Source: Halobacterium sp. R2-5
GTDB taxonomy: Archaea; Halobacteriota; Halobacteria; Halobacteriales; Halobacteriaceae
Reading direction: 5' to 3'
DNA length: 64,000 nt
Assembly (NCBI RefSeq): GCF_011734195.1
Contig: NZ_JAANTH010000002.1
Location: 434,001 to 498,000 of the forward strand
Part shown: in pieces, positions 6,255 to 57,560 of the stretch
Numbering within the stretch: position 1 is the first letter of the stretch
How the letters are laid out: each line of letters begins with the position of its first letter
Notes under the pieces: generated by a model
The model's input: the letters and a program-made list of their open reading frames with translations, nothing else
The model's database searches: none
What the model was told of the DNA's origin: nothing
Program-made: the position numbers and the translations under genes

Positions 6255-6440
6255 AGCGAGAAGGACTAGACGGCGCCGCCGTCAATAAGCATTCGGGCAG
6301 TTACACGTTGATTACCCGAGGCGGCGCGTAGATTCCTCGAAGGCGGATGTGGAGCGGTAAGAGCAGCATACTCGGCCGAAGGGGGAGTTTCACTGCGCGA
6401 GCGGAGCGAGCGCAGGCCGACGAGCGACCGCAAGGAGCGA

Positions 6441-6508
6441 GGAGCGCTTTTTAGCGTAGCTTTTTGCCAGGGAGCGCGCCGGAGGCGCGCGACCGCAGCA
6501 AAAAGGTA
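6441..6508 (-). repeat. 3' hairpin element after cdc48 (copy 1)
   Basis: Directly after the cdc48 TAG the minus strand reads TACC, a T-run, GCTGCG, TCGCG, a hairpin (GCGCGCC-TCC-GGCGCGC, 6474-6490), then CTGGCAAAAAGCTACGCTAAAA (6470 down to 6449, given here as its conserved core). The same order of blocks follows gcvH at 57373. The T-run and hairpin suggest a role in 3'-end formation or mRNA stability. Confidence 0.75.
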
Positions 6509-8734
6509 CTATTGGAACCCGATGTGGCCGCCGCGTTCCTGGCGGTTCTGGGGGTTCTGGCTGCCCTTGAACTGTTCTTCGACGCGGTCGTAGTAGTCCA
6601 TGAGGTCTTCGGTGACGGTGGGGCGGACGTCCTCCATGGCGCGCCGGAAGTGCTGCATCTCGACGTCCTCGGCGTCCTCGTCGTCGCGGAGCGCTTCGAT
6701 GGCGGCTTCGCGGGTGATGTTCGCGAGGTCGCTGCCGACGTAGCCGTCCGTGACTTCGGCGAGTTCGCGGAGGCTGACGTCGGGCGCGAGCGGGATGTTC
6801 TCGGAGTGGATCTTGAGAATCTGCTCGCGGCCTTCGACGTCGGGCTGGCCGACCTGGACGAGGCGGTCGAAGCGCCCGGAGCGGATGAGCGCGGGGTCGA
6901 TGATGTCGGGGCGGTTGGTCGCCGCGATGACCATGACGCCCTCCATCTCTTCGAGGCCGTCCAGCTCGGTGAGCAGTTGGTTGACGACGCGCTCGGAGAC
7001 GTTGTTCCCGACTTCCTGGCCGCGGCCGGGCGCGAGGCTGTCGAGCTCGTCGAAGAAGATGACCGTCGGGGAGACCTGGCGGGCCTTCCGGAACGTCTGC
7101 CGGATGGCCTTCTCGGACTCGCCGACCCACTTCGAGAGCAGCTGCGGGCCGCGCACGCTGATGAAGTTCGCGTTCGTCTCGTTGGCGACCGCTTTCGCCA
7201 TCAGCGTCTTCCCCGTCCCGGGCGGGCCGTACAGCAGCACGCCGGCGGGCGGGTCGATGCCCATGCGGGTGAACTTCTCGGGCTGGTTGAGCGGCCACTC
7301 GACGGCCTCCTTGATGTCCTCTTTGGCCTCGTCGAGGCCGCCGACGTCGTCCCACGACAGTTTGGGGAGTTCGACGAGGACTTCCCGCATGGCGGAGGGT
7401 TCGACCTCGTTGAGCGCGCCCTTGAAGTCGTCGCGCTTGACGATCATGCGGTCGATGAGGCTCGGCGGGATGTCCTCCTCGTCGAGGTCGATCTCGGGGA
7501 GGTAGCGCCGGAGCGCGCGCATCGCGGCCTCCTTGGTGAGGCTCTCGATGTCGGCGCCGACGAAGCCGTGGGTGTCGTCGGCGAGCGACGAGAGGTTGAC
7601 GTCGTCGCTGAGCGGCATGCCGCGGGTGTGAATCTTGAGAATCTCCTCGCGGCCGACCTCGTCCGGGACGCCGATCTCGATCTCGCGGTCGAAGCGGCCG
7701 GGGCGGCGGAGCGCGGGGTCGACGGCGTCGACGCGGTTGGTCGCCGCGATGACGATGACCTGCCCGCGGCCTTCGAGGCCGTCCATCATCGTCAGTAGCT
7801 GGGCGACCACGCGGCGCTCGACTTCGCCGGTGACGTCCTCGCGCTTCGGCGCGATAGAGTCCAGTTCGTCGATGAAGATGATAGACGGGGAGTCCTCTTT
7901 CGCGTCCTCGAAGATCTCGCGGAGCTGTTGCTCGGACTCGCCGTAGTACTTGGAGATGATCTCGGGGCCGGCGATGGAGAAGAAGCTCGCCGACGTCTCG
8001 TTGGCGACCGCTTTCGCCAGCAGCGTCTTCCCGGTGCCCGGCGGACCGTGCAGGAGCACGCCCTGCGGCGGCTCGATGCCGAGCTTCTGGAAGATCTGCG
8101 GGTGTTTCATCGGGAGCTCGACCATCTCCCGGACGCGCTGGATCTCGTTCTCGAGGCCGCCGATGTCCTCGTACGTGATGCCGCCGCCCGTGCGCTCGAA
8201 GCCGCTGATGGGCTCCTCGCGGAGTTCCACGTCCGTGTCCTCGGTGATGAGGCAGACGCCGTCGGGCTCGGTCTCGACGGCGATGAGCGGGATGGCCTGT
8301 CCCGGCGAGCGCATGAACGGGTGGTTCGTGCTCGACATCACCGGCACGATGTCTCGCGAGACGACCGGGCGCTTGAGGATCTGGCGTTTGACCATGCCGG
8401 CGGCGTCGCTGCCGAACTGGACGCTGGCGTCCTCCGGCGGCGCGAGCACGAGCCGGTCGGCCTTCTGGGCCTCGGCCTTCCGGATCTTGACGCGCTCGCC
8501 GATGCCGACGTCGGCGTTCTGCCGCGTGAACCCGTCGATGCGGATGGTGTCGGTGTTCCAGTCCTGCCGGTCGGCGCGCCAGACCTTCGCGGCCGTCGTC
8601 TCGGCACCCTCGATTTCGATGATGTCTCCCGGACTGAGCTTCAGGTGCAGGAGCGTGTCGGGGTCGAGGCGAGCGATGCCCCTGCCCGAGTCGTTCGGGT
8701 AGGCTTTCGCCACCTCAAGTTGGACTTCGTTCAT
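6509..8734 (-). CDS. cdc48: CDC48/VCP-type AAA+ ATPase
   Basis: 741 residues, normal for archaeal Cdc48. Residues 1-190 are the double-psi barrel and second N-domain (substrate and adaptor binding). Two AAA modules follow: Walker [14 protein letters not shown] near 230 with Walker [13 protein letters not shown], and [13 protein letters not shown] near 500 with [15 protein letters not shown]; both have arginine-finger RPGRFD or RSGRFD motifs. Hexamers unfold proteins, in archaea feeding the 20S proteasome. The C-terminal tail IGFQ is short. The 150-bp upstream region holds two AAGTACT elements 33 bp apart. Confidence 0.97.
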
Positions 8735-36946: not shown

Positions 36947-36970
36947 GTTCCCACCGCCTGTACGGTGCGT

Positions 36971-37591
36971 ATGGCCATCGTGGGCCGGTCGAGCCTCCGA
37001 GACCTCTTCGACGACGCGCCGACGCCGCACATCGCACACCCCCCGCAGTCCCACCGGCGAGACTTCTACGTCGCGACCGACGGCTCGTACTCCAGCGACG
37101 GCAGCGGCCTCGGCGTCATCGTCGAGACCCGGACCGGCGAGCGGGTCGCCCGCCTCGCGGTGCCGGACGAAGCCCCGAACAACAACGTCGCCGAGTACCG
37201 CGCGCTCCACCTCGGACTGGACGTGCTCGCGGCGCGCGCGCCCCGGGACGCCCGCGTGGGCGTGCTCGTCGACCACAACGACCTCGCGGGCGACGTCAAC
37301 ACCGCCGCGCTCGCCGCGCGCGCCCACGATTACCGCCCCATCACGGAGTTCTCGCCGCCGGCGACCGCCGACCACCACTGGCGCGGCATCCGCGCTCGCG
37401 TCGTCGGCTTCGAGGAGGTGCGGGCCGCCCAACTGGACAGCAAGACGAACCCCGCGCACCCGCTCGCGAACGAGCCCGAGCAGTACGTCCACGTCAACGA
37501 CGAGCCCGCGCGCTGCCTGCTCCCCGAGCGCGACACCGGCGACGCGCAGGTGCCGCCGCCGTCGCGCAGCGACCGTCGCGCCAGCGACTGA
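36971..37591 (+). CDS. rnhA: Ribonuclease HI
   Basis: 206 residues. The RNase H fold has acidic residues at D37 (ATDGSYSS), E75 (NVAEYRALHLGL) and D101 (LVDHNDLAG). It resembles the haloarchaeal type-1 RNase H with an N-terminal extension of about 30 residues. It degrades RNA in RNA-DNA hybrids. ATG 36971 is preferred to GTG 36965. Confidence 0.9.
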   Translation: MAIVGRSSLRDLFDDAPTPHIAHPPQSHRRDFYVATDGSYSSDGSGLGVIVETRTGERVARLAVPDEAPNNNVAEYRALHLGLDVLAARAPRDARVGVLVDHNDLAGDVNTAALAARAHDYRPITEFSPPATADHHWRGIRARVVGFEEVRAAQLDSKTNPAHPLANEPEQYVHVNDEPARCLLPERDTGDAQVPPPSRSDRRASD

Positions 37592-37599
37592 AACCCACT

Positions 37600-37866
37600 T
37601 TTTGCGCGGTCGCCGAAGGAGCGCGTAGCGCTCTTTCGAGAGCAGGCGAACGCTGTGCGTTCGCCGCCTTCGCGAATCTTCGATTCGCCCGGTGACGAGA
37701 GACGCCGCAGGCGTCTCTCGGGCCACGTGGGGCGCGCTCCGCGCGCCCCACTCGGCAAAACTTGGGGAAAAAGCGCCGTCACCCCACCTCCGGTGGGGTT
37801 CGGCGCCCGAGTGCTCACTCCGCTCGCACTCGGTGAAACTCGGCGTCGCTCCGCTCCGCCGAGTAC
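37600..37866. repeat. Tandem array of eight stem-loops
   Basis: Perfect inverted repeats follow one another: GCTCT/AGAGC (37630-37643), GGCGAACGC/GCGTTCGCC (37645-37665), GCGAATC/GATTCGC (37672-37688), CGAGAGACGC/GCGTCTCTCG (37696-37720), an 11-bp stem GTGGGGCGCGC (37727-37751), ACCCCACC/GGTGGGGT (37781-37799), CCGAGTGC/GCACTCGG (37807-37833) and ACTCGGCG/CGCCGAGT (37838-37864). Loops are mostly 3 nt; the last two share a TCxCTCCGCTC loop. It fills the gap between convergent rnhA and maeB. Confidence 0.85.
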
Positions 37867-37867
37867 G

Positions 37868-40114
<2,247 letters not shown>

Positions 40115-40275
40115 GTTGTTCCCTGCCGCGCCGACCGGCAAAAACCTATCCCAACGCGTCGAACGTTGCTTCGTCGGTCGTCGAAGGAAGCGGTGTTCGT
40201 TCGACGGAAATCCGGCCGGCGGGAGAGAGTTCGGCGCTGCTCCTCGGGACGGCGTTGGTCCGCCACGCCGCGCGC

Positions 40276-40309
40276 CACGCTGCTCACGGCTCCCTCCGGT
40301 CGCCGTTCG
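40276..40309 (-). repeat. Dispersed 35-nt element (copy A)
   Basis: On the minus strand: CGAACGGCGACCGGAGGGAG followed by CCGTGAGCAGCGTGG. It differs from the copy at 45960-45994 at three positions only. It lies in the divergent maeB-ctaA spacer, outside any coding sequence. Confidence 0.6.
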
Positions 40310-40387
40310 CACCAAACGCGGTTCTCGCTCGCTCCGAACCGCGCTGAATACGACACGCATACGTACCGACCGCGAAAAGACTCGCCT

Positions 40388-41218
40388 ATGGACCGCCGCT
40401 CGTACCAGCTCGCGGCCGTGACCACCGTGTTGACGTTCGCGCTCATCCTCGTCGGCGAGTACACCGCCGTCTCCGGGTCGGGCGCGACCTGCGGCCTCCA
40501 GTGGCCCGACTGCAACGGCCAACTGCTCCCGCTCGGCCTCCAGGTTCACGACTTCGTCGAGCAGTTCCACCGCGGATTCGCGATGGTCGTCGGCTTCTTC
40601 ATCCTCGGCACCGGCGCCGTCGCGTGGCGCGGCTTCGACGCCCGGGACGTGAAAGCCGGCGGCGTGCTCGCCGTCGTCCTCCTGCCGCTGCAGGTGATTC
40701 TCGGCGGCACCACCGTGACGTTCAGCGGGCTCGTCCCGTGGGGGTACATGCCCATCACGCAGGCCGTCCACCACCTCGCCGCGCTCGCCATCTTCGCGAC
40801 GCTGCTCTATACCACGCTCCGGATGCGCGAGCTCGCGGGCGTCGGCCTCGGTCGCGTCCGCACCGCTGCAATCGGCGGCCTCGCGGTGCTCCCGGTCGCG
40901 CTCGTGTTCTCGCGGAACACCGTCTTCGCGGTGTACGGCACTCGCGTCCAGCTGATCCACCACGCGCTCGAACTGCTCGTGTTCACCGCCGCCGTCGCCG
41001 CGTTCGTGTGGGCGCGCCGCCACGGCGACCGACGCGTGTCGCAAGCGATGCTCGCGACCGGCGTCGTCGTCACCGTCCAGATTCTCATCGGTACTGGCGT
41101 CGTGCAGTTCTCCCCGACCGTCCAGCTCACGTACTACGTGCTCACCGCGGTCGTCGCCGCGCTGTTCCTCGTCGCCGCGCGCTCGACCCCGAACCGGTCG
41201 GTCGCCGCCGCGTCGTAG
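40388..41218 (+). CDS. ctaA: CtaA/Cox15-like heme A synthase
   Basis: 276 residues with about eight hydrophobic segments. His residues in [12 protein letters not shown] and [10 protein letters not shown], and later LIHHALELL, match the heme-ligating His pattern of heme A synthase. It converts heme O to heme A for terminal oxidases. The [10 protein letters not shown] Cys pair near residues 38-46 is like the conserved Cys pair of Cox15/CtaA. ATG 40388. Confidence 0.85.
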
Positions 41219-55903: not shown

Positions 55904-57001
55904 ATGGCTCTCCGAACGCCGCCGCTGTCCGACCGCCACGGCGACCGGGGCGCGCAGTTCACGGAGTTCGGCGGGTGGGAGATGCCCGTCGAGTTCGACT
56001 CCATCCGGACCGAGCACGCCGCGGTGCGGGAGTCCGCTGGCGTCTTCGACGTCTCCCACATGGGGGAGATCGAGGTCGGCGGTCCGGACGCCGAAGCGCT
56101 GATGCAGCGGCTCACGACCAACGACGTCGCCGCGCTCGACCCCGGTGAGGCCCAGTACGCCGCGATAGTGGACGACGAGGGCGTCATGCTCGACGACACG
56201 GTCGTCTACCGGCTGCCAGAGGGCGACGACGCGGAGTTCCTGTTCGTGCCGAACGCCGGCCACGACGAACAGATGTACGAGCGGTGGACCGACTACCGCG
56301 ACGGCCACGACCTCACGGCGAGCGTGGACAACGTCACCAGCGAGTACGGCATGGTCGCCGTGCAGGGCCCGGACGCCCCCGGTCTCGTCGCAGCACGCGC
56401 CGGCGACTCTGTACTCGACCTCGGGCGCTTCGAGGCCGAGTACGCGGCGGTCGCGGGCGTCGAGTGCTGGGTGGCGAACACCGGATACACCGGCGAGGAC
56501 GGCTTCGAGGTCGTGTTCCCAGCGGACGGCGCGGGCGCAGTCTGGGACGCGTTCGCGAACAACTGCCAGCCCTGCGGGCTCGGCGCGCGCGACACGCTCC
56601 GCCTCGAAATCGGGTTACTACTGTCCGGCCAGGACTTCCACCCCGAGGAGAACCCGCGCACGCCCTACGAGGCCGGCGTCGGGTTCGTCGTCGACCTCGA
56701 CACCGACTTCGTCGGGCGGGACGCCCTCGAAGCCCAGCAGGGCGCGGGCCTCGACGAGGAGTTCGTCGGGTTCGTCCTCGAGGAGCGCGGCGTCCCCCGA
56801 CACGGCTACGAGATCACCAGCGAGGACGGCGACCCCGTCGGCGAGGTCACGAGCGGCACGATGAGCCCGACGCTGGGCGAGCCGATCGGGCTCGGCTACG
56901 TCGACACCGACTACGCAGAGGACGGCACCACCGTCGAGGTCGTCGTCCGCGGCACCGGCAAGCGAGCGACCATCACCACACCACCTTTCATCGACCAATG
57001 A
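55904..57001 (+). CDS. gcvT: Glycine cleavage system T protein (aminomethyltransferase)
   Basis: 365 residues. Transfers the aminomethyl carbon from H protein to tetrahydrofolate. Signatures: [32 protein letters not shown] and [12 protein letters not shown] near 196-207, [18 protein letters not shown] near 233. The TGA overlaps the gcvH ATG (ATGA). Confidence 0.95.
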
Positions 57002-57372
57002 GCTTCGAAGTACCCGACGACCTGTACTACCTCGAATCGCACGAGTGGATCGACCCCGAGACCGGCCGCGTCGGCATCTCCGAGTTCGCGCAGGACGAGC
57101 TCGGCGACGTCGTCTTCGTCGAACTCCCGGCCGTCGGCGACGAACTCGACCGGGAGGAGGAGTTCGGCGTCGTCGAGTCCATCAAGGCCGTCTCGGACAT
57201 CTACGCGCCCGTCTCGGGCGAAGTGACCGCGGTCAACGACGCGCTCGAAGACGAGCCCGAGCTGGTCAACGACGACCCGTTCGGCGACGGCTGGCTCGTC
57301 GAACTCGACTTCGAGGAGGCCGACCTCGAGGACCTCCTGGACGCCGACGAGTACGCCGACCAGATCGCATAG
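56998..57372 (+). CDS. gcvH: Glycine cleavage system H protein
   Basis: 124 residues. Lipoyl carrier with the lipoylated Lys63 in [14 protein letters not shown]. It shuttles the aminomethyl group among P, T and L proteins. Its stop codon is followed at once by the 3' hairpin element. Confidence 0.95.
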
Positions 57373-57435
57373 GTACCGTTTGCTGCGCTCGCGGCCTTCG
57401 GCCGCTCGCTGGCAAAAGCTACGCTAAAAGCCCTC
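57373..57435 (+). repeat. 3' hairpin element after gcvH (copy 2)
   Basis: Immediately after TAG: GTACCGTTTGCTGCGCTCGC, then hairpin GCGGCC-TTC-GGCCGC (57391-57405), then CTGGCAAAAGCTACGCTAAA and A (57409-57429), then GCCCTCCTCC. The block order equals the element after cdc48. Hairpin stems differ but both pair. Confidence 0.75.
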
Positions 57436-57560
57436 CTCCTTCACTTCGCGCTCTTCGAGCGCTCCATTCAGTCGTCGGCCCACGCTCGTTTGCTTCGCTC
57501 ACTCGCGCGGTGAACCGGCGACCTTCCGGGTCCTTCGGACCACTCGGTCGCCGGATGCTG
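57436..57560. repeat. Further stem-loops in the gcvH-downstream spacer
   Basis: GCGCTC-TTC-GAGCGC at 57448-57462, and a nested hairpin CCGGCGACC...GGTCGCCGG (57515-57554) that encloses GGTCC-TTC-GGACC (57529-57541). Loops of TTC recur. They may form part of a 3'-end array similar to that after rnhA. Confidence 0.65.

Follow-up and report, generated by a model that had tools for sequence, protein, structure and literature searches.

A structured, position-anchored element behind haloarchaeal genes and its probable role at transcript ends

Results

Three elements at gene ends

The window, that is, the whole 64,000-nt stretch of Halobacterium DNA analysed, holds three hairpin-bearing elements, each lying just behind a protein gene. 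A first-pass annotation had described two of them, at the stop codons of gcvH and cdc48. Both copies are present as described and Pfam assigns their hosts to GCV_H and CDC48; a third copy with another core type (37594-37867) had been missed.

56998-57372, + strand: gcvH (glycine cleavage H-protein), host gene; stop codon TAG at 57370-57372; Pfam GCV_H, E=7e-41
57373-57558, + strand: whole gcvH element (hairpin 1, core, module 2, GTGAA, hairpin 3, ATGC)
57373-57375, + strand: boundary triplet GTA, paired with TAC at 57420-57422 (fold and covariation)
57378-57381, + strand: run 1, GTTT, a degenerate T4 forming the 5' base of hairpin 1
57382-57413, + strand: inner part of hairpin 1
57414-57417, + strand: run 2, A4, the 3' base of hairpin 1
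57418-57425, + strand: core 8-mer GCTACGCT
57426-57429, + strand: run 3, A4
57430-57509, + strand: module 2, a second hairpin region that is subtype-specific
57510-57514, + strand: GTGAA linker
57515-57558, + strand: hairpin 3 and terminal ATGC
6509-8734, - strand: cdc48 (AAA ATPase), host gene; stop codon TAG at 6511-6509; Pfam CDC48_N, E=2.4e-30
6366-6509, - strand: whole cdc48 element, its first G being the last base of the cdc48 stop codon
6461-6504, - strand: T5 (6504-6500), hairpin 1 and A5 (6465-6461) of the cdc48 element
6448-6460, - strand: core GCTACGCT (6460-6453) and run 3, A5 (6452-6448), of the cdc48 element
36965-37591, + strand: host gene of the third element, 208 aa, stop codon TGA at 37589-37591; no Pfam match
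37594-37867, + strand: third element, beginning with CCCA-C-T5 (37599-37603), a long nested hairpin 1 and A4 (37757-37760)
37761-37772, + strand: core CTTGGGG (37761-37767) and A5 (37768-37772) of the third element, behind which it continues with further hairpins
37868-41044: malic enzyme gene, convergent to the host of the third element

The order behind the gcvH TAG is GTACC-GTTT-hairpin-AAAA-GCTACGCT-AAAA, and behind the cdc48 TAG, on the minus strand, TACC-TTTTT-hairpin-AAAAA-GCTACGCT-AAAAA. The 22-nt pattern with up to three mismatches had no chance match in 100 shuffles of the window, and the RNA folding z was -3.6 for the cdc48 copy and -1.6 for the gcvH copy. A T-run had been reported for both copies; it is intact behind cdc48 but degenerate behind gcvH. 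The pairing of the stems stands, although the paired region is longer than the stems first drawn, with the T-run and A-run forming the hairpin base. Likewise, hairpin and core were correctly placed but the end was not: the elements continue to ~57558 and ~6366, with two more hairpins separated by GTGAA. The third element, with its CCCA/TGGG boundary, occupies the entire gap separating two convergent stop codons.

A repeated architecture with three equal runs

The annotation had taken these copies for a repeated 3'-end module, and the genome bears this out. About 23 canonical sites with AAAA-N-CTACGCTAAAA or close variants occur in its 2.98 Mb, the reversed pattern occurs 0 times, and allowing three As in each A-run gains just two sites across the genus. 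The analysis drew on the loci surrounding these hits. (G)TACC-T(4-6)-hairpin precedes the core at nearly all of these ~23 sites, and in many copies a second hairpin, GTGAA, a third hairpin and ATGC follow. The same order recurs in Haloarcula, Halococcus, Natronococcus, Natrinema and Haladaptatus, among other genera. The general architecture is XYA-CC-T(n)-hairpin-A(n)-NN-TY'X'-NNN-A(n), often with two more hairpins following; the T-run is the 5' foot of the hairpin and the A-run its 3' foot, the outer triplet pairs with the core, and the third run comes after. The few bacterial matches to the pattern are chance strings. A viral origin was also rejected, as 28 core matches on viral contigs are chance strings in AT-rich DNA that lack the T-run and hairpin.

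Among 192 canonical copies, the T-A-A run lengths are (5,5,5) in 134, (4,4,4) in 36, (6,6,6) in two and (3,3,3) in one; (6,6,6) runs were also found in families with other cores. Run 1 pairs with run 2, run 3 has no partner of its own, and the lengths shift together between species at the SRP RNA and IdsA sites. These equal lengths are an observation without a settled cause: the lineages are not independent, and copying of the whole core could yield the same pattern. At the SRP RNA 3' end of one genome, a single A-run stands in place of the whole stretch between the start of the first A-run and the end of the second, which looks as if a deletion had occurred between two equal runs.

Some copies are more elaborate. 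A two-hairpin module, CTGCTCACGG..CCGTTCGCACGGCCAGCGGGACC..GGTCCCGCTCGGCT, recurs inside hairpin 1 in several genomes and genera as a hairpin nested in a hairpin (eight loci, including one in Haloarcula and one in Halococcus). At four loci, Natronococcus-like and Halobacterium, a short element is flanked on either side by copies of a coding-like stretch.

The element abuts stop codons and mature RNA ends

Fixed orientation and distance to the stop codon, proposed from the first two copies, hold generally. The stop codon-to-TACC distance is 0 in 64 of 121 protein hosts and at most 5 nt in 115, and the T-run follows the stop codon at ~4-9 nt; behind RNA genes it is found at the mature end. TAG, which overlaps the boundary GTA, is the stop codon in 89 of the 121 hosts, compared with 19 of the 50 predicted genes of the window, and TAA is preferred where core types have other boundaries. 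As TAG supplies the G of GTACC and elements with other boundaries prefer TAA, the element shapes the stop codon.

The protein hosts are mostly core genes. In this genome they include, besides GcvH and Cdc48, the two confirmed by Pfam among those named, proteins that we take from their sequences to be EF-2, thermosome, FtsZ, LonB, PCNA, TFS, IdsA and AdoHcyase; CarS is a further host named in this way. RNA genes also carry the element at their 3' ends, namely SRP RNA (in four Halobacterium genomes), RNase P RNA and several tRNAs. At two loci a second tRNA-like T-arm (locus position ~1420-1455) separates a tRNA-Arg gene from the element; ARAGORN did not predict a tRNA at this place, and the T-arm may belong to a tRNA with an intron or be a tRNA fragment. 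Where the upstream gene is on the sense strand, the downstream gene is convergent in 41 cases and co-directional in 36, which rules out placement solely between convergent genes.

Hairpins are replaced at fixed sites

Clustering by upstream DNA revealed corresponding sites in two to five Halobacterium genomes, and FtsZ, EF-2, Cdc48-like proteins, CarS and a few more recur as hosts in other genera. At orthologous sites identity is 87% over the final 150 nt of the host and 100% over the core plus A-run, whereas the hairpins are 59% identical (median, 102 pairs) against 54% at unrelated sites (p = 0.0003). As hairpin identity is near the unrelated level while the site and its fixed parts are kept, the hairpin must have been replaced or rewritten. 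The annotation's proposal of a mobile or copied module found no support: sites are largely orthologous between species, no Y1 transposase is detectable in this genome, and the part that changes is the hairpin, within a site that stays in place.

The element is lacking or was lost in several species at the SRP RNA and EF-2 sites, and it is therefore dispensable there. In one Halobacterium genome the canonical core is absent, and the EF-2 and SRP RNA ends are bare.

A base-pairing code across the class

Of 391 genomes sampled from the class, 314 contain the pattern T5-N{22,52}-A5-N8-A5, some of them with 20-60 matches, and reversed controls were near zero. With any spacing from 4 to 12 allowed, almost all of the matches listed had 8, or 7 or 6 in subtypes with a one-C boundary; this listing repeats overlapping matches, so that its counts are upper bounds.

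At the EF-2 and SRP RNA sites of other families, core and boundary differ together. Across the 241 elements whose core is 8 nt long, pairing between the boundary triplet and core positions 3-5 holds at 89% of positions, and 83% of elements are fully paired; shuffling gave 36% on average and 44% at most. A single register is used (0.89, all others 0.69 or less), and seven complementary combinations each occur more than once: GTA/TAC, CCA/TGG, CGA/TCG, GGA/TCC, GCA/TGC, CAA/TTG and GAA/TTC. Excluding the canonical core leaves 79% fully paired against a permutation maximum of 37%. The permutation takes no account of shared ancestry; when each non-canonical boundary-core combination is counted once, 63% of the 52 are complementary (permutation maximum 29%). 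The earlier suggestion of selection on structure is thus borne out by covariation between boundary and core. A lack of further copies, random placement relative to stop codons and absence of covariation were checked for, and none of the three was found.

Folding points the same way. The minimum free energy of 253 elements had a median z of -4.1 against dinucleotide shuffles, and 188 of them beat all 60 shuffles, although part of this is built in, since a paired T/A foot was a criterion for choosing the elements. Stem conservation was judged by grammar matching and permutation in place of a covariance model; MAFFT alignment of canonical hairpins was uninformative for stems because the hairpins are not homologous in sequence.

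The canonical core is absent from every sampled genome of one family, probably the Haloferax/Halorubrum family to judge from how large it is and from its pattern of absence, while the general grammar is present in some of its genera. Three of its genera are almost free of the structural grammar; others hold several copies.

Discussion

We propose that this is a position-anchored haloarchaeal transcript-end (terminator/insulator) element conserved at the level of structure, a reading to which we give a probability of roughly 0.55. Because its letters change while pairing is kept, the element probably ends and insulates transcripts. As the T-run follows the stop codon at once, sense transcripts would most likely end there, by intrinsic termination and/or FttA (aCPSF1), leaving a very short trailer. 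Antisense transcription would meet hairpins 3 and 2 and then T(n)-N8-T(n), and should likewise end, which would make the element a two-way terminator/insulator around important transcription units. Any hairpin letters would be allowed provided that pairing holds, and with such freedom the hairpin could be replaced wholesale in evolution. This proposal accounts for the placement, for the RNA genes among the hosts and for the fact that any hairpin is tolerated; the fixed core and run 3 are left unexplained. Furthermore, plain T-run termination does not need the hairpin, because the sense T-run precedes it, and two-way termination is not always needed, because downstream genes are co-directional as well as convergent.

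Archaeal T-stretch terminators (T5C in Haloferax, and the aCPSF1/FttA-dependent U-tract) resemble the element in having a T5 run a few nucleotides after the stop codon or RNA 3' end, and a T-run of four or more directly downstream of the host gene is present here as it is there. In contrast to them, the T-run of the element is half of a hairpin foot, accompanied by a paired boundary triplet, a fixed core and a third run. On the antisense strand the hairpins followed by T-runs recall Rho-independent terminators; the sense order, however, is T-run and then hairpin, so the element does not qualify as one. The only Rfam matches over the gathering score in the searched loci were tRNA, SRP RNA and RNase P RNA, and identity with a known RNA family is rejected on that search. 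No earlier description of the element was found in the open-access literature. The core string did not occur in open-access haloarchaeal full text; the nearest things described there are the PATE/SMR repeats and the T-stretch terminators of Haloferax.

An unlikely alternative is that the element is a selfish palindromic repeat of the REP or PATE/SMR kind, mobilised by a hairpin-acting transposase of the IS200/IS605 type. Insertion just behind genes would be favoured as harmless, and the boundary/core pairing would be a guide-target code like that of IS605 ends; the triplet code does resemble guide/cleavage-site pairing. Bacterial REP/BIME sequences are likewise dispersed palindromic repeats behind genes with a conserved motif at the hairpin foot. 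Haloarchaeal IS605-derived PATEs are also short palindromic repeats, and ~110-bp SMR-A repeats insert into palindromes by an unknown mechanism (PMC3119063). Compared by description, SMR-A (inverted terminal repeats, located in PATE/IS605 palindromes) is of similar size to the element, and both include nested forms. Some elements share inserted hairpin modules between loci and genera, and closely spaced copies are present. However, the PF01797 profile (Y1/RAYT transposase) had no match in the window's genome, which is 99% complete, and IS200-type mobilisation in this genome was rejected on that search; its six TnpB loci have no element nearby, and no virus carries it. In contrast to REP/BIME, the element has several core types with compensating boundaries, and its orthologous sites are kept across species while the hairpins differ; no sign of current mobility was found. 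PATEs and SMR-A show strain-specific insertions and target other mobile elements (PMC3119063), whereas conserved genes have the element right at their stop codons or RNA 3' ends, with an exactness that exceeds what harmlessness requires.

An mRNA 3'-UTR stability or processing element, with a hairpin that is kept in the mRNA and either stops 3' exonucleases or attracts a nuclease, would suit the strong RNA fold, the fixed place behind stop codons and the apparently well-expressed hosts, yet seems improbable to us. The element also lies directly behind tRNA, SRP RNA and RNase P RNA genes, none of which requires a tail of this kind at its end, and efficient termination at the T-run preceding the hairpin would exclude the hairpin from the transcript. 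Of the two roles termination is the likelier, since Haloferax relies mainly on a T-stretch behind the gene as its intergenic terminator and T5C alone gave 95% termination in a reporter there (PMC7237163).

The three equal runs could also, at long odds, form base triples, the antisense U(n)-N8-U(n)-hairpin-A(n) folding into n U-A-U triples; the first U-run could then lie parallel to the A-run, by analogy with triple-helix RNA stability elements. A duplex-DNA or cruciform site for a chromosome-architecture protein, also benefiting from a place between transcription units, would fit the invariant core and A-tracts at fixed 8-nt spacing but is very unlikely given the tight coupling to gene ends and the cores that differ between families and within one genome while pairing is kept, which suits a structure read from a single strand better than one duplex site.

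Hairpin replacement at fixed sites is a neat natural example of selection that acts on structure and not on sequence. Were the base triples real, haloarchaea would own a triplex-based transcript-end or insulator device with an interchangeable hairpin. Descriptions of haloarchaeal termination come mostly from Haloferax, a member of a family that apparently lacks this core. Should the element prove to be a terminator, a large part of the class would be ending transcripts with a structured, two-sided device that has a base-pair code of its own.
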